Part shown: piece by piece, positions 7,016 to 30,855 of the stretch
Position numbering within the stretch: the first letter of the stretch is position 1
Layout: every line of letters begins with the position of its first letter
NCBI RefSeq assembly: GCF_005145045.1
Contig: NZ_CP039691.1
Coordinates: forward strand, 62,001 to 126,000
From: Agrobacterium larrymoorei
GTDB taxonomy: Bacteria > Pseudomonadota > Alphaproteobacteria > Rhizobiales > Rhizobiaceae
Direction of reading: 5' to 3'
DNA length: 64,000 nt
The notes under the pieces: model-generated
What the model was told of the DNA's origin: nothing
Database searches by the model: none
Seen by the model: the letters and a program-made list of their open reading frames with translations, nothing else
Position numbers and translations under genes: made by a program

Positions 7016-7630
7016 ATGAAAATTCAGGCCGTTTGCCGGGCCGAGCCCAGAGCACTCCCCGGCAAGACATCGAAGACCGGCATCTTCAAGCATGCCCTGC
7101 AAGGCCCGGTCATGGTGGATGAGGCTGGCATCGTGGGAGATGCCGTCTGTAACCGCAAGCACCACGGCGGGCCGGATCAGGCCATCTATGTCATGGGCTC
7201 CGCCGATCTGGATTTCTGGTCACGCGAACTTCGCCGTGAGATCGAGCCCGGATTTTTCGGTGAAAATCTGGTGATCGAGGGCATCGACAGCGCAGAACTT
7301 CATGTCGGCGACCGGCTGGAACTGGTGCAGGTCACACTTGAAGTCACCGCAGCGCGCATACCCTGCGCCACATTGAACGCCCGTATCGGTGATCCGCATT
7401 TTACCCCACGGTTCCGGGAGGCCGGTCATCCCGGCTTTTACTGCCGGGTGCTGAAACCCGGCATGATAGAGGCTGGCGAAAGCGTGACCTTCGTTCCCTA
7501 TGAGGGGACGAAACTGCTGATCCCGGTCATCCTGCAGCGCTTCCGGCCCAACCGCCTGTCTGAGGAAGAGCGCGTCGCGTTTCTCGACACGCCCCTTGCC
7601 AGTCGCTTTCGCGCGATGATCGAGACTTAG
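7016..7630 (+). CDS. MOSC domain-containing protein (YiiM-like)
   Basis: 204 residues. The start at 7016 is chosen because an AAAGG ribosome-binding site lies 6 bases upstream; the frame is open further upstream without support. The MOSC fold, shared with the C-terminal domain of molybdenum cofactor sulfurases, shows the conserved PCATLN cysteine (about residue 120) that may carry sulfur or ligate molybdenum. The opening segments (GDAVCNRKHHGGPDQAIYV) and GFFGENLVIEG are typical of YiiM, which reduces N-hydroxylated bases such as 6-hydroxylaminopurine. The substrate here is an inference. It is inserted on the opposite strand between recR and ybaB. Confidence 0.9.
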   Translation: MKIQAVCRAEPRALPGKTSKTGIFKHALQGPVMVDEAGIVGDAVCNRKHHGGPDQAIYVMGSADLDFWSRELRREIEPGFFGENLVIEGIDSAELHVGDRLELVQVTLEVTAARIPCATLNARIGDPHFTPRFREAGHPGFYCRVLKPGMIEAGESVTFVPYEGTKLLIPVILQRFRPNRLSEEERVAFLDTPLASRFRAMIET

Positions 7631-7650
7631 CGCCGTTTCCAAGCAGCTTC

Positions 7651-7974
7651 TTAGAAAGGCAGCTTCATGCCGGGCGGCAGAGGAATACCGGCAGTGATGC
7701 CCGCCATCTTTTCCTGCGCCTGCGCCTCACCCTTTTCCTTTGCATCCTTGTGAGCTGCAACGATCAGGTCTTCGAGAATTTCGACGTCGTCTTCCTTGAA
7801 GAGCGATGGATCGACCTTGAGGCCGCGCATTTCACCCTTGCCGTTGAGTGTAACGGTGACGAGGCCGCCACCGGATGTGCCGTGGACTTCCAGTGCGGCA
7901 ATTTCTTCCTGCACCTTCTCCATCTTGGCCTGCATTTCCTTGACCTTGCCCATCATGCCCATGATGTCACGCAT
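7651..7974 (-). CDS. YbaB/EbfC family nucleoid-associated protein
   Basis: 107 residues, the usual size. YbaB/EbfC proteins form tweezer-like dimers that bind DNA without strong sequence preference. The N-terminal helix [22 protein letters not shown] is coiled-coil-like, followed by a beta-rich core ([21 protein letters not shown]) and the C-terminal PPGMKLPF tail typical of alphaproteobacteria. It lies downstream of dnaX on the same strand; the 72-bp gap contains a palindromic repeat element. Confidence 0.93.
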
Positions 7975-7997
7975 GGCTGAAACTCCTCTTTTGTTGT

Positions 7998-8044
7998 AGC
8001 GGCGGATTGTCCGAAAACCGCTTCACACTTTTCGATCCGCCGCT
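7998..8044. repeat. Dispersed palindromic element, copy 1 (between ybaB and dnaX)
   Basis: Perfect 10-base terminal inverted repeats (AGCGGCGGAT and ATCCGCCGCT) flank the core CCGAAAACCGCTTCACACTT. The same core, in either orientation, recurs at 13315-13357 and in diverged form at 48654-48699 and 60645-60689. It lies exactly in the dnaX-ybaB intergenic gap. Confidence 0.7.
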
Positions 8045-8046
8045 TA

Positions 8047-9915
8047 TTAGAATTCGATATCGTCGCCCGGAAGGATGTCACCTTCGCTGGATTCGGCAAC
8101 GGAAGGCGGTGCGATCTCATCCGCCTCTTCCACCAATGGCGCGCGAATACGCACGTCCGTAATCTTGGCACCGGGAAACTGCGAGAGGATCGCGGCAACA
8201 TCCGGGTCCTGACGCGCATCGACAAGCCGCGCATTTCGCGCATTGCCTTCGGCCTCGACCAGCGTCGGCTCGCCCTCTTCCTTGCTGAGGCTGACGATCC
8301 AGTGGATGCCGGTCCATTCCTTCAGCTTGACGCCGAGTTCACCGGGAAGCGTTCCCGGTGCGCCTTCGCCAAGCCGCATGTCGAGACGACCCGGCTCCAG
8401 CCGCACCAGACGAACGAAATTGCGAACCTTCGCCCTCATCACCGGATCGCGGTTCTTCTGGCAGAGATCGGCGATATCCTGCACCGATTTTACCGGCACC
8501 TTCGGTTCCGGTCGTTCTTCGGTCCGGGGTGCCGCAACCTGCATCTCCTGCGGGCGGCTATCCGGCACGGCGCGCAACATGGCTGTCGGCTGCGGAGAGG
8601 ATTGCATCTGCGGTGAGGCTTGGGCTGAGGCTACGGCCTGAGTGGATGAGTACGCACGCGCACCACCGCCATTTCCGCCACCGCCTGACGGACCGCCGTT
8701 CGAAGAGCTGCCCTCACCATTGGAAAGCTCCGCCAGACGGCGCGCTGCATCTTCAGGTGCAGGAAGATTTGCCGCATGCGACAGGCGGATCAGCACCATT
8801 TCGGCAGCGCCTGCCGGACGCGAGGCGTTTTCCGTTTCCGGTATTCCCTTCAGCAGCATCTGCCAGATGCGGGACAGGGTGGAGACGGCAATGCTATCAG
8901 CAAATTCGGCACCGCGCACACGCTCCACTTCCGAAAGCGACGGGTCTTCCGCTGCATCCGGCACATATTTCATACGCGTGACGAGGTGGGTAAAATCCGC
9001 CAGATCGTTGAGAATGACGACAGGGTTGGCACCTGCCTCATATTGCGCGGTGAACTCGGAAAGTGCCGCGGCCACATCGCCTTTGACGACATGTTGAAAC
9101 AGATCGACGATGCGAGCGCGGTCCGCAAGACCCAGCATGCCGCGCACCGCTTCCGCCTCTACGCGACCGCCGCCATGGGCAATCGCCTGATCCAGTAGCG
9201 AGAGACCGTCACGCGCCGAACCCTCCGCCGCACGCGCGATCATCGCCAATGCCTGTGGATCGGCCTCGAAACCTTCCTTGGAGGAAATGGCCGTGAACAG
9301 ACCAACCAGATCGGCAGCGCTGATGCGGCGCAGATCGAAGCGCTGGCAGCGCGAGAGAACCGTGATCGGAACCTTGCGGATTTCGGTCGTCGCGAAAATG
9401 AACTTCACATGCTCCGGCGGCTCTTCGAGCGTCTTCAACAGGCCGTTGAAAGCCTGCGTCGAAAGCATGTGCACTTCATCGATAATGTAGACTTTGTAGC
9501 GCGCCGAAACCGGGCGGTAACGCACCTGCTCGATGATCTCGCGAATGTCATCGATACCCGTATGCGAGGCGGCGTCCATCTCGATAACATCGACATGGCG
9601 GCCTTCCATGATGGCCTGGCAATGTTCGCCGGGAACGCGCAGGTCGATGGTCGGCTTGTCGATCTCGGGCGTCTTGTAGTTCAGCGCGCGCGCCAGAATG
9701 CGCGCCGTCGTCGTCTTGCCCACGCCGCGAACGCCGGTCAGCATATAGGCCTGGGCAATACGACCGGTTTCGAACGCGTTGGTCAGCGTGCGAACCATCG
9801 GCTCCTGCCCGACCATCAGATCGGAGAAATCCTTGGGGCGATATTTGCGTGCCAAGACCCGGTAACCGGTACCCTGCTCATTCGTCTGGGGCATGTTGGT
9901 TCCGGTGTCGCTCAT
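8047..9915 (-). CDS. dnaX: DNA polymerase III subunits gamma/tau
   Basis: 622 residues. This is the clamp-loader ATPase of the replicative polymerase. The AAA+ module (about 20-240) has Walker A GVRGVGKTTT, Walker B-type IIDEVHMLS and the sensor SRCQRFDLRR with its arginine finger. The usual four-cysteine zinc module of bacterial DnaX is not intact: only one Cys remains in the GEHCQAI segment. A collar domain (to about 380) is followed by a Gly/Ser/Pro/Gln-rich linker (about 395-475) and a tau-like C-terminal domain. No A-rich slippery heptamer is evident, so a separate gamma form by frameshifting cannot be supported. The SRP RNA gene lies just upstream. Confidence 0.96.
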   Translation of the reverse strand: MSDTGTNMPQTNEQGTGYRVLARKYRPKDFSDLMVGQEPMVRTLTNAFETGRIAQAYMLTGVRGVGKTTTARILARALNYKTPEIDKPTIDLRVPGEHCQAIMEGRHVDVIEMDAASHTGIDDIREIIEQVRYRPVSARYKVYIIDEVHMLSTQAFNGLLKTLEEPPEHVKFIFATTEIRKVPITVLSRCQRFDLRRISAADLVGLFTAISSKEGFEADPQALAMIARAAEGSARDGLSLLDQAIAHGGGRVEAEAVRGMLGLADRARIVDLFQHVVKGDVAAALSEFTAQYEAGANPVVILNDLADFTHLVTRMKYVPDAAEDPSLSEVERVRGAEFADSIAVSTLSRIWQMLLKGIPETENASRPAGAAEMVLIRLSHAANLPAPEDAARRLAELSNGEGSSSNGGPSGGGGNGGGARAYSSTQAVASAQASPQMQSSPQPTAMLRAVPDSRPQEMQVAAPRTEERPEPKVPVKSVQDIADLCQKNRDPVMRAKVRNFVRLVRLEPGRLDMRLGEGAPGTLPGELGVKLKEWTGIHWIVSLSKEEGEPTLVEAEGNARNARLVDARQDPDVAAILSQFPGAKITDVRIRAPLVEEADEIAPPSVAESSEGDILPGDDIEF

Positions 9916-10639: not shown

Positions 10640-11607
10640 TGATCTCAAAAAGCATTTTCGAAACCAACTCGCCACATCCCGAACCCTCGACTCTCACAGC
10701 ATTCGCTCAGAACGGTCTCAACCGTCTGGCGGAGAAACGTGATGAAAACTGCGTTGTCGATGCCTTGAAGGTCGAAGGTACGCATCTGCTTGCCTTTGCG
10801 GGCAACAAGCTTGTTCTGAAGCACGACGATCAGGTGCTAGACCCGCTCTTCTCCGCCTATGAACTGGCTGAGCTCGATCCGGATTTCGAACGGGCGATCC
10901 TGCTCGGCCACAAGGAAAACGGCGAGCCCCGCGTGGCCGTGCCGGTGGGTGTGGCGGAAGATGCGCTTGCCAGTCACTACAAGCCGGTGGATGCACGCTC
11001 GCTCTACCGCGACCAGCTGATTGGCGAGGAACTGCTCGGCGAAGTCGCGCAGGCCGTCAGCCTCGTCAACTGGAATGCCGACAACAGGTTCTGCGGTCGC
11101 TGCGGCGGTCACATGGAACTTCGCATCGGCGGCTACAAGCGCATCTGCGCCAGCTGCGGCCACACCATCTTTCCGCGCACCGACCCCGTCGTCATTATGC
11201 TGACCATCGATCTGGAGCGCGAACTCTGCCTTTTGGGCCGTGGAGCCCATTTCGCGCCGGGCATGTATTCCTGCCTTGCGGGGTTCGTGGAGCCGGGCGA
11301 GACGATCGAGAATGCTGTGCGCCGCGAAACGCGGGAAGAGTCCAGCATCGAGATCGGTCGCGTCCGTTATCACGCATCACAGCCATGGCCTATGCCACAT
11401 ACGCTGATGATCGGCTGCTATTCGGAAGCACTCTCCTTCGATATTACGCGTGACGAGGCAGAGCTTGAGGATTGCCGCTGGTTCACGCGTGACGAGGTGG
11501 TGGAGATGTTGAATGCGAGCGCCGCCAACGGCAAATCCCCTCCCCCACGCGGCGCGATTGCGCATCGGCTGATGCGGGACTGGATCGAGTGGGATGGGGT
11601 GAGGTAA
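10639..11607 (+). CDS. nudC: NAD(+) diphosphatase / NAD-capped RNA decapping Nudix hydrolase
   Basis: 322 residues. NudC hydrolyses NAD(H) to NMN(H) and AMP and removes NAD caps from RNA. The N-terminal domain is followed by a zinc ribbon (CGRCGGHMELRIGGYKRICASCG, two CxxC pairs at about 152-175). The Nudix box has the form GFVEPGETIENAVRRE...REESSIE, and the NudC family signature SQPWPMPHTLM follows it. All catalytic Glu residues are present. The start at 10639 overlaps the HIT gene stop. Confidence 0.95.
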   Translation: MISKSIFETNSPHPEPSTLTAFAQNGLNRLAEKRDENCVVDALKVEGTHLLAFAGNKLVLKHDDQVLDPLFSAYELAELDPDFERAILLGHKENGEPRVAVPVGVAEDALASHYKPVDARSLYRDQLIGEELLGEVAQAVSLVNWNADNRFCGRCGGHMELRIGGYKRICASCGHTIFPRTDPVVIMLTIDLERELCLLGRGAHFAPGMYSCLAGFVEPGETIENAVRRETREESSIEIGRVRYHASQPWPMPHTLMIGCYSEALSFDITRDEAELEDCRWFTRDEVVEMLNASAANGKSPPPRGAIAHRLMRDWIEWDGVR

Positions 11608-26147: not shown

Positions 26148-26798
26148 CTAGCCGATGTTGCAGCTGACGCCGGTGCCGCGCAGGCCGCAATAACCGCCGG
26201 GATTTTTGGCCAGATATTGCTGGTGATAGTCTTCGGCATAATAGAAGATATCGAGCGGCTCGATCTCGGTGGTGATCTTCGGGCGGTGACCGGCGGCTTC
26301 CAGTGCCTGCTGGAACGTGTCGCGCGCCGCTTTTGCCTCGGCCAGTTGCTCGTCACTCGTCGTGTAGATGACGGAGCGATAGGTCGTGCCGACATCATTG
26401 CCCTGACGCATGCCCTGCGTGGGGTCATGCTCTTCGAAAAATATCTTCAACAGGGAAGCCAGCGTAACCTGTGACGGATCGTAAACGACTTTCACCACCT
26501 CGGCATGGCCCGTCAGCCCCGTCGTCGTTTCCTGATAGGTGGGGTTGCGGGTGATACCGCCGGAATAGCCGACAGCCGTAACCCACACGCCTGGCGTCTT
26601 CCAGAAAAGCCTCTCTGCCCCCCAAAAGCAGCCCATGCCAAGATAGACCGTCTCCAGACCTTCCGGATACGGGCCCTTCAGGGGGTTCCCGTTGACGAAA
26701 TGATGTTCGGGCACCGCAAGCGCCTGATCGCGACCGGGGATCGCGGTGTCGGCGGTAGGCATCACGGTTTTCTTTGAAATTGTATCGAATCCAAACAT
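26148..26798 (-). CDS. msrA: Peptide methionine sulfoxide reductase MsrA
   Basis: 216 residues from the ATG at 26798, which has AGGGAGA just upstream; longer in-frame starts lack support. MsrA reduces the S-epimer of methionine sulfoxide in proteins. The catalytic Cys is in [13 protein letters not shown] (about residue 54). Substrate-binding segments include GYSGG and [11 protein letters not shown], and resolving Cys residues are near the C-terminus ([14 protein letters not shown]). Confidence 0.96.
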
Positions 26799-26863
26799 TG
26801 CAGTCTCCCTGCGGCAGTCAGACGCCGCGTTCCGATGTGCATTGCGTGGTTGCTGCCGTCTCG

Positions 26864-27181
26864 TCAGGCCGCAAAACGACCCAAGGGCCTTGGCTTCCTG
26901 TATCCTGCCATCCAGAACAGCAGGGAAAGCCCGAGAAGAACTGCAAAGGCGGGAATTGCAGACAGGCCGTCTTCGATCCAGCGCCACGCTTCCGGATGAA
27001 TATAGTGTGCCGTCATGCTTTCTGCCATGGCAAGCGATGAAGGAGAAAGTTGCGCCCAGCCCTGGCTAAAGCTCATGAGATCGACGGAGGATGTGGAAAC
27101 GGAGCGGATGGAATCAAAAACGCCGATTGCCACCGCACCAGCCAGGAGCAGGAAGCTTACGAACCGGAACAACGCTTTCAT
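26864..27181 (-). CDS. Small membrane protein of unknown function
   Basis: 104 residues from the ATG at 27181, which has GGAGA upstream. A first membrane helix lies at about 4-22 ([17 protein letters not shown]) and a second at about 72-92 ([19 protein letters not shown]), with a polar loop between and a basic C-terminus. No family was recognised from sequence. Two-helix proteins of this size and layout occur upstream of tRNA-Ser in rhizobia, but that is only an impression. Confidence 0.7.
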
Positions 27182-27324
27182 GGCAGGTCTCCCCGGTTTT
27201 TCGACAGGCAAATCACAAACCGATATTCGGCTTTCATGCCTCTTGGATACTGTCCGCAGAAGCGCTTTGCAATCACGTCATAAACAGGCTTTTTGCACAC
27301 ATTTAAAAAAACTGTCAGAATCGG

Positions 27325-27353
27325 GTTGATCGCGGCGAATTCATCGGTATATA
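27325..27353 (+). promoter_or_regulatory. Promoter of tRNA-Ser
   Basis: GTTGAT, a 17-base spacer and TATATA match the rhizobial housekeeping pattern. The predicted start (about 27360) is 45 bp before the mature tRNA 5' end. Confidence 0.6.
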
Positions 27354-27404
27354 TCGCGCCGTTCCAGTGATTTGCATTTCCCAAAACATGCAGATGCTCA
27401 AAAA

Positions 27405-27494
27405 GGACAGGTGGCCGAGTGGTTTAAGGCGCACGCCTGGAACGCGTGTGTGCGTGAAAGCGTACCGTGGGTTCGAATCCCACCCTGTCCGCCA
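27405..27494 (+). tRNA. tRNA-Ser (anticodon GGA)
   Basis: A 90-base cloverleaf with acceptor arms GGACAGG and CCTGTCC, the anticodon loop CTGGAAC between CACGC and GCGTG, the long variable arm typical of serine tRNAs, the T-arm GGTTCGAATCC and an encoded GCCA 3' end. It reads UCC/UCU codons. The AT-rich two-gene island starts directly behind it. Confidence 0.96.
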
Positions 27495-27607
27495 TTTGGC
27501 TTTTCCCGAGGAAATACGAGATAACTTTAAAAAAGCGGCTACTTCACGCTTATATTTTACTGGACTGACGAACACAACCGAAAGTAAAAAAAGAACAAAT
27601 AGGGAAC

Positions 27608-27636
27608 TTGCATTGGAATTGTATTTTTACTATATA
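27608..27636 (+). promoter_or_regulatory. Promoter of the ImmA-cyclase island operon
   Basis: TTGCAT (27608-27613), exactly 17 bases and TATATA (27631-27636) form a strong sigma-70-type promoter. Transcription would begin near 27643, about 46 bases before the peptidase start codon. It gives the island its own promoter. Confidence 0.65.
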
Positions 27637-27688
27637 GGGAGTAGTGTTTGCGGGCAGTGATTCGGCCCTCCTGAAAGCGAGGCATCGG

Positions 27689-28234
27689 ATGTCAACAAAA
27701 TATATTGCACCTGAAGCTGTTGGGGCAACAAAGAATCAGGTTGAAATCTTCGCTGAAGATGTTGCTAAGCATATAGGTTTTTTTCCTGGTGATAGCCTAG
27801 AAGAACTCGTTAGCAAGACTGGTGGCCAACTTTTGTTTGGCTCAAGCGGTACGGGCGACTATGAGAGCGGCTCCATCATAGCCCGCGATATGAGTGACTA
27901 TACTATATATTTGTCTAGAAATACTTCCAGGCAGAGAGATAGATTTACAATAGCTCATGAGTTAGGTCATTTACTCCTCCACCTCCCTAAGATTAAGCAG
28001 CAGGATGCTGATGCGATCATGAGAGCCACTCGCTGGGTTGACGAAAATAGCGAAGCTCAGAAGCGGGCAGAATGGGAAGCTAATTGGTTTGCTGCAGCGT
28101 TCTTGATGCCGAAAGAGCCCTTTATTCGTTCCTTCAATAATGGCGGTGCCGTTACTGCTCAACACGAATTTGACGTGAGCGCAGCAGCAGTACAAACGCG
28201 CGCTAAGTCGCTTGGTCTTTTATCGCATGGATGA
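27689..28234 (+). CDS. ImmA/IrrE-type (COG2856) zinc metallopeptidase
   Basis: 181 residues from the ATG at 27689, with GAGG 6 bases upstream. The zinc site is HELGH at residues 90-94, preceded by RQRDRFTIA. The third ligand is the Glu of EANWFAAAFLMP (E130), the standard ImmA/IrrE pattern. Known members cleave or relieve HTH repressors: ImmA acts on ImmR, IrrE/PprI on DdrO, and CapP on CapH in CBASS loci. Unlike most relatives, no HTH domain is fused to it and no HTH gene is adjacent. Codon use is AT-rich, unlike its neighbours. Its last 8 bases overlap the cyclase-like gene. Role as regulator or effector of the cyclase is an inference. Confidence 0.85.
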   Translation: MSTKYIAPEAVGATKNQVEIFAEDVAKHIGFFPGDSLEELVSKTGGQLLFGSSGTGDYESGSIIARDMSDYTIYLSRNTSRQRDRFTIAHELGHLLLHLPKIKQQDADAIMRATRWVDENSEAQKRAEWEANWFAAAFLMPKEPFIRSFNNGGAVTAQHEFDVSAAAVQTRAKSLGLLSHG

Positions 28235-29351
28235 CGAAGTTCCGCCGGAATACCGAATTCGCCTCTTTCTATCTGTAGATTTAGTTGGATCGACCGCATA
28301 CAAATCAAAAGAGGGCAGCACCAATTTAAAGTGGATAAAAGCTTTTCAAAAATTCTACGGAGAATTTCCTTATCAATTTAAAAGGAATTATAAGCAGCTT
28401 TGCTCATCGATTCCCGAAATACCCGTAGAAGAATATAGCGTCGACCCAAAAGTCTGGAAAACGATTGGAGACGAGATATTATTTGTCAATAGAGTTAATA
28501 GCATTACTCACTTAGGTGCGTATGTTAAAGCGTTTGCGCAGACTCTAATAGATTTTGGACGAGAGGTGCACACTTCTTACGAGTTGAACACGAAGGGAAA
28601 TGCTTGGATTGCAGCGTTTCCTAATCCCAATCGAAGTATTCGCTTATCAATGAATGGTGACGATCCATTAATTGGGGAGAATGAAGTTTTAACTGAGGCA
28701 TTTGAGGCAAAGGTCGACGATACCCCAAGCAATTATGATTTTTTGGGAAAAGGTATTGACGGCGGTTTTCGCATCTCACGTAATTCTACAATTGATACTT
28801 TTACTATTTCCCCAGCGCTCGCATATCTTTTATGTAAAGCAAAGCGAAATGTAGATACTACAAAGTTTGACGGAAGGTTTGTCTTTCACGAACCACAAGA
28901 ATTTAAAGGTGTAGTAAAGGGCCAGAAATATCCAGTTATTTCTCTAATTACTAGTCGCGATGAGGCTTTTGATTATCTTCAAAGTTTAGAAAGTGAATTA
29001 CTGGATCGTCCGAGAGAAGCTGACTTTGTTAAATTGTTTACATACTTGGAAAGCTACATAGTTCACCATGGAATTGAGCGCCCAGAGTTGCGATTAACGG
29101 CGAATGGAGCGTCTGTTGATCCACCTGAGCATTATAGTGACTATATAAAGGAATGGCGCGAGGACTTAGAAAAGATCAGAGCGGCTAAATCTTATGAAGA
29201 CAGCGCCTCTTCTGCCAATGGCGAAGCCGATGAGTCCAGTGCGTTGAATCCTCAAACAAAAGCCGTAAATCTTGAAGCTGCGATCAAAGATTTTCTACGA
29301 TTAGCAGAGAGCGTACCCGCAAAAAATGACAGGAAAACGGTAGAGGAATAA
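28227..29351 (+). CDS. Class III nucleotidyl-cyclase-like protein (candidate Pycsar-type or signalling cyclase)
   Basis: 374 residues from the ATG at 28227, 8 bases inside the peptidase gene. The N-terminal part (about 8-215) has hallmarks of a class III cyclase homology domain. LSVDLVGSTAYKSK supplies the first metal-binding Asp (D18). WKTIGDEILFV supplies the purine/pyrimidine-side Lys (K78) and the second metal Asp (D82). KGNAWIAAFP (123-132) follows, and then YDFLGKGIDGGFRIS (170-184), where D178 and R182 fall near the base- and transition-state positions. The C-terminal part (about 220-374) is unrecognised, and about 318-345 is low-complexity and probably disordered. There is no membrane helix and no known sensor domain. 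The DNA is strikingly AT-rich: the 60 bases 28321-28380 contain only 16 G or C. The product nucleotide is unknown. Confidence 0.75.
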   Translation: MDDEVPPEYRIRLFLSVDLVGSTAYKSKEGSTNLKWIKAFQKFYGEFPYQFKRNYKQLCSSIPEIPVEEYSVDPKVWKTIGDEILFVNRVNSITHLGAYVKAFAQTLIDFGREVHTSYELNTKGNAWIAAFPNPNRSIRLSMNGDDPLIGENEVLTEAFEAKVDDTPSNYDFLGKGIDGGFRISRNSTIDTFTISPALAYLLCKAKRNVDTTKFDGRFVFHEPQEFKGVVKGQKYPVISLITSRDEAFDYLQSLESELLDRPREADFVKLFTYLESYIVHHGIERPELRLTANGASVDPPEHYSDYIKEWREDLEKIRAAKSYEDSASSANGEADESSALNPQTKAVNLEAAIKDFLRLAESVPAKNDRKTVEE

Positions 29352-29541
29352 CGTGATGGCCGAAGACAGGTGTCGCTAACGCCAGTATTTGAGACAGCTT
29401 GTTGATTGCGATTCTAAATAAAAAATTAGATTACCAAAACTTAAGGTGATTTTGGTGCAGGAAGGATGTTTCCTCTAGCTTGGAAAGCCTCAACGGCACG
29501 GTGGCGTGCTGCGGTTTTCTCATCCAAGCCGGAACTCCGTC

Positions 29542-30855
29542 ATGAAAAAATTATGGATACTTGCCAGTGTCGCCGTCATCGCTGTTGCAGCATGGCCATT
29601 TCGCGACTCTATTCCCTATATTAAGACCCTGCCATTCATTGCCGGAGAAAACCACCAGAAGCTTGCCGCTGCTGGCGGAGAACAGAAGAACGGTGAAAAA
29701 GCTGGCGGCCGCTCGCAGGACGGCCAATCATCGAGTGAAAAGTCATCCGGCGGGCAAGGTTCCGGCAGGGGCCAGGGCGGCGGTCGCCGCAATAGTGGCC
29801 CGCCTTCGGTTTCCACCGTCGCAGTCGAAGAAGCGACACTGCCAATGGATGTTGCAGCAACCGGCTGGGCCGTTGCGGCAGACTCTACCAATATCGCGCC
29901 GAGAGAACAGGGCGTCGTCCTGTCCGTCAGTGCCAAGGATGGGCAGGAAGTCAAGGCTGGCGATCTGATCCTCAAGATGGATGACCGATACGCGGTCGCC
30001 GCAGTGGCGAAGGATCAGGCAGATATCGCTGCCGACCAGGCCACGCTGGCGCAAAACGAGGCCGCGTTTCAGCGCGCTTCCAATCTGGCAAAGCAGAGCG
30101 TCGAATCGCAGCAGTCGCTGGAACAGACGCGGGCCGCGCGTGATTCGGCAGCAGCCAAGATCGACGCCGATAAGGCGACCCTTCAGTCCGATCAGGCAGC
30201 GCTTCAGGATATGGAAATCCGCGCGCCCTATAATGGGCGGCTCGGCGATGTGACGGTCAGCCCCGGGGCTTACCTGAGCGCAGGCGTCACCATCGTCAGC
30301 ATTACGCGCTACGACCCGATCTCGATGGAGTTCAGGCTGCCCCAACGCTATCTGCCGCAGCTTCATGAGGGTCTGAAGTCGGAAGCCGCCGTCAGCATCG
30401 ATCCTGCCGCAACGGGCGGAACACCGGTCACCGGCAAGCTCAGCTTCTTCGATAACAATGTCGATCAGGCCTCCGGCACGGTTCTCGTCAAGGCGGAATT
30501 CCAGAACGATAAAGGCCTTGTATGGCCGGGCCAATCGGCCAATGTCACCGTGCACTTCAAGTCGGATGACGAGCAGATCGTCGTTCCAACGGTTGCTCTG
30601 AGAGCCGGGCCGACAGGCGCTTTCGTCTATACTGTGGATGACAGCCAGCATGTGCACGTCACGCCCGTCGATGTCGCACGTTCGAATGGCGACATGACTG
30701 CGATTGCCAAGGGGCTTTCTGCCGGGCAGCATATCATCGTTGAAGGTCAGTCAGAGTTGGTGGATGGCCAGACGGTCATCGAGAAGATGTCGCCGACTGC
30801 GGATAAGGCAGACACCGTTGCGCAGAACGGCCCTGTCACGGAGGCCGCCCAATGA
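29542..30855 (+). CDS. RND efflux periplasmic adaptor subunit (HlyD/MFP family)
   Basis: 437 residues from the ATG at 29542. A single N-terminal hydrophobic segment (LWILASVAVIAVAAW) anchors or exports it. A Gly/Ser/Lys-rich low-complexity linker (about 40-90) precedes the lipoyl halves and a coiled coil rich in Ala/Gln/Asp (about 155-235). The barrel and membrane-proximal domains follow, ending about residue 410. It links the inner-membrane pump to an outer-membrane channel. It overlaps the pump gene by 4 bases. No TolC gene or adjacent regulator is in the window. Confidence 0.93.
   Translation: MKKLWILASVAVIAVAAWPFRDSIPYIKTLPFIAGENHQKLAAAGGEQKNGEKAGGRSQDGQSSSEKSSGGQGSGRGQGGGRRNSGPPSVSTVAVEEATLPMDVAATGWAVAADSTNIAPREQGVVLSVSAKDGQEVKAGDLILKMDDRYAVAAVAKDQADIAADQATLAQNEAAFQRASNLAKQSVESQQSLEQTRAARDSAAAKIDADKATLQSDQAALQDMEIRAPYNGRLGDVTVSPGAYLSAGVTIVSITRYDPISMEFRLPQRYLPQLHEGLKSEAAVSIDPAATGGTPVTGKLSFFDNNVDQASGTVLVKAEFQNDKGLVWPGQSANVTVHFKSDDEQIVVPTVALRAGPTGAFVYTVDDSQHVHVTPVDVARSNGDMTAIAKGLSAGQHIIVEGQSELVDGQTVIEKMSPTADKADTVAQNGPVTEAAQ

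Follow-up and report, generated by a model that had tools for sequence, protein, structure and literature searches.

Introduction

M78 (ImmA/IrrE) zinc peptidases and class III nucleotidyl cyclases are each known from bacterial stress and immune circuits. Among the former, the available sections of Makarova 2009 (PMC2701414) describe M78 (COG2856) genes whose neighbours are often XRE repressors, report that the ICEBs1 repressor ImmR is not proteolysed unless ImmA is present, include phages phiC2 and LE1 among the carriers of COG2856 operons, and discuss COG2856 modules alongside toxin-antitoxin-like mobile operons. PprI, another member of this family, requires a GAF-like domain for its stimulation by ssDNA (PMC10904395, in the sections available). 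On the cyclase side, the Pycsar layout consists of a cyclase gene and a neighbour gene (PMC11224242, again in the sections available). A dedicated pair of an M78 peptidase and a class III cyclase was not found described in the open-licence literature.

Here we report on such a pair, an M78 peptidase gene (A) followed by a class III cyclase-like gene (B), in a 64,000-nucleotide stretch of Agrobacterium larrymoorei DNA (the window hereafter, always meaning the whole stretch that was analysed) from a 5.26 Mb genome in 4 contigs. The positions of all features are collected in Table 1.

A horizontally acquired two-gene island behind tRNA-Ser

A preliminary description of this locus had placed a two-gene AT-rich island at 27495..29360, between a tRNA-Ser gene and ordinary core genes, and most of that picture held. 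GC content falls sharply after the tRNA, from ~0.58 before the island to 0.39-0.48 across 27.5-29.5 kb (16 G/C by count in 28321-28380), and then recovers, the A-B pair standing at 0.425 vs. 0.576 for its 12 kb flanks. The island's content is A and B, which overlap by 8 bp (A ends at 28234, B starts at 28227), and ordinary genes resume on either side, with an MsrA-type reductase gene and an unnamed short ORF before the island and pump genes (HlyD and AcrB-type) after it (the six flanking ORFs scanned being Bmp, MsrA-type, unnamed, HlyD, AcrB and cytochrome c). Alignment with congeners puts the left edge at ~27495-27500, as described, and the right edge at ~29430, which makes the island slightly longer than proposed. 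The -35/-10 promoter that the island had been credited with did not stand out: a scan of 27400-29600 returned 6 promoter-like sites vs. 3.9 +/- 1.8 in shuffled sequences, no better than chance, and just one of the six lies on the correct strand and upstream of A. No integrase gene was found within the island's ORFs and no tRNA-end repeat of the attachment-site type at its far edge, and the tRNA was the sole match in an Rfam scan of 26500-30500.

Each of the 39 congeneric genomes searched, that of the window among them, contains a match to the tRNA region, and 30 loci at the tRNA-Ser site were retrieved, i.e., the window's own and 29 others. The three closest by DNA identity (L023-L025) align on both island flanks with 114-146 bp between them; in the remaining 26 the left flank alone aligns, within the ~1.5 kb covered on that side. 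Different sequence lies 3' of tRNA-Ser across the congeners examined (L026-L051), with dnaK in some of them by our reading of the alignments, and the site is therefore variable within the genus.

B itself was detected in 2 of the 39 congeneric genomes, the second copy (G025) lying elsewhere on its contig and belonging to another lineage, so that the pair is not syntenic in all relatives. Further out, B occurs in 3/101 relatives, 10/394 family genomes and 15/385 class genomes (own genome counted), and the window's B clusters in the tree with its counterparts from Cypionkella, a viral contig and an isolate of Rhizobiales. Given the empty site, the sporadic presence, the AT-richness and the nearest relatives outside the genus, the island is an inserted, horizontally acquired two-gene segment, as had been proposed.

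Table 1. Features of the island and its insertion site (positions within the window).
Feature	Position	Strand	Remarks
tRNA-Ser (GGA), insertion site, intact	27405..27494	+	ARAGORN; Rfam tRNA 61.2 bits
AT-rich inserted segment	27495..29430	+	114-146 bp instead in three closest congeners
Gene A, ImmA/IrrE (M78) zinc peptidase with HTH-like helices, 181 aa	27689..28234	+	ATG start
HELGH zinc motif of A, residues 90-94	27956..27970	+	H90, E91, H94 invariant 40/40
EWEANWFAAAFLMP of A, residues 128-141	28070..28111	+	E128 invariant 40/40
Gene B, class III nucleotidyl cyclase-like, 374 aa	28227..29351	+	ATG start; 8 bp overlap with A
Cyclase core of B (predicted), residues 8-245	28248..28961	+	
Metal Asp 1 of B (D18)	28278..28280	+	D in 54/56, gap in 2
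KTIGDE of B, residues 78-83: base Lys K78, metal Asp 2 D82	28458..28475	+	
DFLGKGIDGGFR of B, residues 171-182: base Asp D171, D178, R182	28737..28772	+	
C-terminal region of B after KGVVKGQKYP motif, residues 237-374	28935..29348	+	

Gene A, an M78 peptidase

Both protein identities suggested earlier, an ImmA/IrrE peptidase and a class III cyclase-like protein, found support. A, which could alternatively begin at a GTG 45 bp further upstream, matches PF06114 (M78) with an E-value of 8.4e-20 (71.3 bits vs. a cut-off of 22) and carries the HELGH and EANWFAAAFLMP already noted in the preliminary description. HExxH is present in 45/45 aligned A-type sequences, 31 of them from pair loci. E128 aligns with the Glu in CapP's IEAQAD and is likely the third zinc ligand. 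A extends only as far as the position of CapP residue 185 (the CapP chain having 278 residues resolved and 291 in sequence), and neither a domain scan nor the comparison with CapP found a GAF-like or other recognised cyclic-nucleotide-binding domain in it.

Gene B, a divergent class III cyclase-like protein

The predicted structure of B has the class III nucleotidyl cyclase fold with both metal Asps, which belong to the two motifs pointed out previously (FLSVDLVGST and WKTIGDEILF). K78, G81, D82 and E83 are kept in 56/56 aligned sequences, as are D178 and R182, and D171 is kept in 54/56 (E in 2). R182 is the transition-state Arg; D178 stands at the transition-state Asn position, which is never Asn in these sequences, and this invariant Asp could mean altered or absent cyclase chemistry. 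The C-terminal region is predicted to comprise the last core strand, helices and a low-confidence, partly disordered end.

B has no match to Pfam Guanylate_cyc, and PDB sequence searches with two B profiles (A1 and A3) gave 0 matches at E 10. A profile of 16 distant B members matches PF00211 members (hhalign probability 90.8, E 1.2e-6), whereas that of close homologues (A1) gave no significant match to them (probability 0.5), 20 column-shuffled A1 profiles scoring similarly and two of these higher than the real one; the sequence-level cyclase match is thus significant solely with distant members. PHROGs 18024 and 6174 match B at 1.8e-35 and 5.4e-6, and also match the six other B proteins scanned. 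No model of PADLOC, which presumably includes PycC models, matches the window's B, and among 10 other B proteins 8 gave no match and 2 weak ones. The absence of PycC structures from the 50 structure matches listed carries no evidential weight. From its predicted fold and conserved residues, B is probably a catalytically active, divergent class III nucleotidyl cyclase.

A and B are linked across distant bacteria, plasmids and phages

Broadly speaking, A is found directly upstream of B wherever B was examined: in 17 of 18 genome loci, Methylobacillus and a Verrucomicrobiales MAG among them (L019 is the exception), in 10/10 of the family sample, and in 22 of 24 viral contigs, several of which are near-copies (L118 is truncated where its contig begins, and L132 is without A upstream). 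The class sample has A adjoining B in 11 of 16 further B genes (window's excluded), the exceptions being two loci without A (L066, L070), one cut by a contig end (L067) and two whose upstream proteins are without HExxH (L071, L072). Five of seven matching plasmid records were examined, with A adjoining B in four and absent in L113; of seven matching phage records, the four examined (covering LE1, phiCD27 and phiC2) all have the pair, phiC2 by annotation. Homologues of the two genes therefore do not co-occur rarely, in line with the coupling previously claimed for them.

The linkage also holds from the side of A. A-profile matches in the 385 class genomes numbered 24 at 1e-15 or better, 12 of them beside a B match: all of the 11 best and one of the 13 weaker. 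Spacing in 49 pairs is tight (18 overlap, 29 lie at 0-20 bp, 2 further), and A and B distances correlate over 42 pairs (r 0.787, with 0/2000 shuffles as high and the best at 0.318), a value that mere co-inheritance would also give; mean identity is 38% for A vs. 27% for B. The A-B pairing is real, a unit travelling across distant bacteria, plasmids and temperate phages.

Copy number and integrity vary in some places. Genome G439 holds three divergent pair copies on three contigs (L068, L073, L076), and a Mycolicibacterium plasmid has two tandem ImmA/IrrE genes before B (L111:3617-4968). In L017, B appears interrupted (7432-8148), its C-terminal piece (profile 234-352) lying ~2.6 kb downstream at 10732-11121. 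B is also broken into two ORFs in L065:1364-2445 (G262), with a tRNA-Met and an A frame that is still open next to it, and G360 holds an intact copy.

Variation in the C-terminal region of B and in its partner

The catalytic positions of B are kept in L019, L066, L070, L071 and L072 (Glu at 171 in L072), where A is degenerate (L019), missing (L066, L070) or replaced (L071, L072). This suggests that B activity, and not that of A, is the constant part. Clear loss of HExxH is limited to one protein, that of L019 (5502-6026), which shows an M78 pattern without HExxH (hhalign probability 90) and looks like a pseudo-peptidase partner of a B with intact catalytic residues. The L071 and L072 partners were considered as degenerate M78 proteins as well; with hhalign probabilities of 7.7 and 2.2, we make no such claim.

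The C-terminal segment of B is 62-66 aa long in a clade formed by L066, L070, L113 and L067 (tree support 100/96), and at least 80 aa in the others measured (L006 was left out, its motif not being scorable). The upstream side of L067 is off its contig, and the absence of A in this clade covers L066, L070 and L113 alone. As the short tail is confined to one clade, the contrast represents one evolutionary event. The B of L070 lies near a STAS-like protein and a histidine kinase (read from the translations), and that of L113 adjoins a PP2C phosphatase; these neighbours suggest a partner-switch role for the A-less clade.

Other B tails carry additional domains. The Aquabacter B (L010:7989-9356) is one protein with a fused C-terminal XRE HTH at 403-454 (HTH_3, 4e-13), the domain type usual as a partner of M78 peptidases. 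The B at L127:3914-5359 has a C-terminal NUDIX-like domain (PF14815 at 4.9e-7, below cut-off; PF00293 at 1.5e-4, above cut-off). The clade with this NUDIX-like domain is phage-borne; phiCD27 (L107:4839-6425) gives a weak PHROG hint of it, and L132:1270-2319 is alike by eye.

Genomic setting

The AT content of the pair exceeds that of its flanks in 26/28 chromosomal or unclassified loci and in 20/21 viral, phage or plasmid loci, the loci being partly non-independent in both sets. Five of 32 loci have a tRNA gene on the same strand as A and 49-207 bp ahead of it, namely tRNA-Ser in the window (GGA), L005, L169 and L171 (CGA), and tRNA-Met in L061. With ~60 tRNA genes per 5 Mb bacterial genome, well below one such upstream tRNA would be expected by chance among 32 loci. 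The mobile carriers of the pair include Leptospira and Mycolicibacterium plasmids as well as phages LE1, phiC2 and phiCD27. Among the 166 viral neighbour ORFs listed, 20 were scanned, and these placed integrases near L116, L117, L127, L132 and L134, CI-like repressors near L119 and L126, and tail or portal genes near L115, L121, L122 and L124, the other scanned ORFs being unknown or unmatched. LE1 carries the pair close to a CI repressor, with a ParA-like gene ~0.5 kb away, and the phiC2 copy, annotated 'similar to phage LE1 ORF 2/ORF 1', has an AbiF-like gene 2.1 kb away.

For the chromosomal copies, 128 of the 130 listed neighbours were scanned (a very long one, L013:10735-15489, and the B fragment L017:10732-11118 were left out). 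PADLOC matched 54 families at 1e-10, as raw tallies; among the 25 of these families listed, the commonest were a type IIG restriction enzyme (3/128) and DrmMI-type methylases (2), with single matches to candidate families. Pfam tallies (25 of 142 families listed) were mostly of ordinary metabolic families with 1-3 members each. These raw tallies over 128 neighbours gave no clear defence-gene enrichment or defence-island setting around chromosomal copies. The earlier proposal of a horizontally acquired cyclic-nucleotide defence or stress module is borne out in part: the acquisition, the protein identities and the co-occurrence hold, while a defence role and cyclic-nucleotide production by B stay conjectural, B having no PADLOC match and the chromosomal neighbours no clear defence setting.

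What the pair may do

We tentatively favour, at somewhat below an even chance, a mobile stress or phage-conflict module whose cyclase, B, is switched when A binds or cleaves it. The island would be one of the copies of a mobile two-gene module that spans phyla, B being its constant, probably active cyclase part. A GAF-less A of the IrrE/CapP type, translated just ahead of B, would act on B by binding, and in most lineages cleaving, its variable C-terminal tail, the putative contact or cleavage region. Stress or infection would provide a cue that alters the state of A and B and so switches nucleotide cyclisation; the resulting signal or NTP drain might benefit the carrier, most likely in conflict with phages or mobile elements. 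We infer an action of A on the tail because M78 peptidases often act on an adjacent regulator, the tail is modular, and it is short in the A-less clade. An action on B is also supported by the XRE neighbours of M78 genes, by ImmA-ImmR and by the XRE fusion in L010. Support for mobility and conflict comes from the temperate phages, the integrase/recombinase or CI genes nearby, the AbiF-like neighbour, the plasmids and the tRNA sites.

Chance neighbours or an ordinary core locus, in favour of which nothing emerged, can practically be dismissed, given the bidirectional linkage, the correlated divergence and the empty site, and the linkage counts refute the chance reading outright. In a Pycsar-like scheme, B would make a cyclic mononucleotide on infection and thereby activate A, a proteolytic effector halting growth or cutting a repressor. 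The class III fold and near-complete active site of B, the HExxH in 45/45 aligned A sequences that makes A a plausible executioner, and the layout of a cyclase with a neighbour (PMC11224242, in the sections available) all fit it. We nevertheless consider this unlikely: A is a protease with HTH-like helices alone, no recognised cyclic-nucleotide domain being found in it, and intact-looking cyclases stand beside an HExxH-less partner (L019) or without a peptidase (L066, L070, L113). On the same grounds, of the two roles that the preliminary description had offered for the peptidase, regulator or effector, the latter is the weaker half.

An addiction system, with B toxic through NTP use or cyclic-nucleotide excess, A restraining it, and loss of the pair punishing plasmid or prophage loss, agrees with two adjoining genes of which A is first, with the plasmid copies and the ParA-like gene ~0.5 kb away on LE1, and with sporadic presence. 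It too seems unlikely, as A is missing beside B in two genomes (L066 and L070), in a plasmid (L113) and in a viral contig (L132), and A is better conserved than B (38% vs. 27% mean identity). An antitoxin better conserved than its toxin is atypical. The available sections of PMC2701414 lend something both to addiction, by discussing COG2856 modules with toxin-antitoxin-like mobile operons, and to a control of lysogeny or of mobile elements, since ImmA acts on ImmR, the ICEBs1 repressor. Such a pair would tune induction or superinfection immunity, chromosomal copies being remnants, and CI-like repressors do lie near it in LE1, L119 and L126. This is quite improbable in our view: the chromosomal copies sit among mostly ordinary genes (among the families listed), their frames are mostly open (broken in L065, split in L017), and several phage copies are near tail or portal genes, not the switch.

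Beyond the favoured reading of a cyclase switched by its peptidase, it is possible, though less likely than not, that the pair represents a new mobile nucleotide-signalling conflict family, an Asn-to-Asp cyclase gated by a minimal M78 peptidase that swapped its XRE partner, and that this family spans Agrobacterium to Leptospira, Mycolicibacterium and Clostridioides phages. The phage families PHROGs 18024 and 6174 gain a predicted enzyme fold, the orphan genes of phages LE1, phiC2 and phiCD27 gain a lead, and one small cloneable operon becomes available for direct study of a putative peptidase-gated cyclase.

Comparison with known systems

CapP has C-terminal ~100 residues that A lacks, and its partner is a repressor (CapH) where that of A is a cyclase-like enzyme; no repressor or CBASS genes were found in the island or the six flanking ORFs scanned. 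IrrE/PprI-DdrO differs in that A has no GAF-like domain and the island no repressor gene. PHROGs 18024 and 6174, which B matches, are entries without function or partner. With Pycsar the island shares a class III cyclase, a small mobile system and a neighbour gene, but here the neighbour is an M78 peptidase, and PADLOC does not match B. When positions are counted from the metal Asps, S16, K78, I80 and L85 of B differ from the pyrimidine-site residues of AnPycC and EaPycC, K78 occupying the position of EaPycC R142 (PMC11224242, in the sections available). CyaB, CyaC and Rv1900c have in common with B the fold, the metal Asps, the base Lys and Asp, the transition-state Arg and the phosphate Lys, and B departs from them in its lack of a Pfam match, its Asn-to-Asp change and its C-terminal tail. 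ImmA-ImmR and the COG2856-Xre operons are alike in being mobile two-gene operons with an M78 peptidase; in LE1, phiC2 and phiCD27, the gene next to the peptidase is the cyclase-like B, which goes unmentioned in the available sections of PMC2701414. The pair is built of known parts, with a reasonable prospect that it constitutes a new system.
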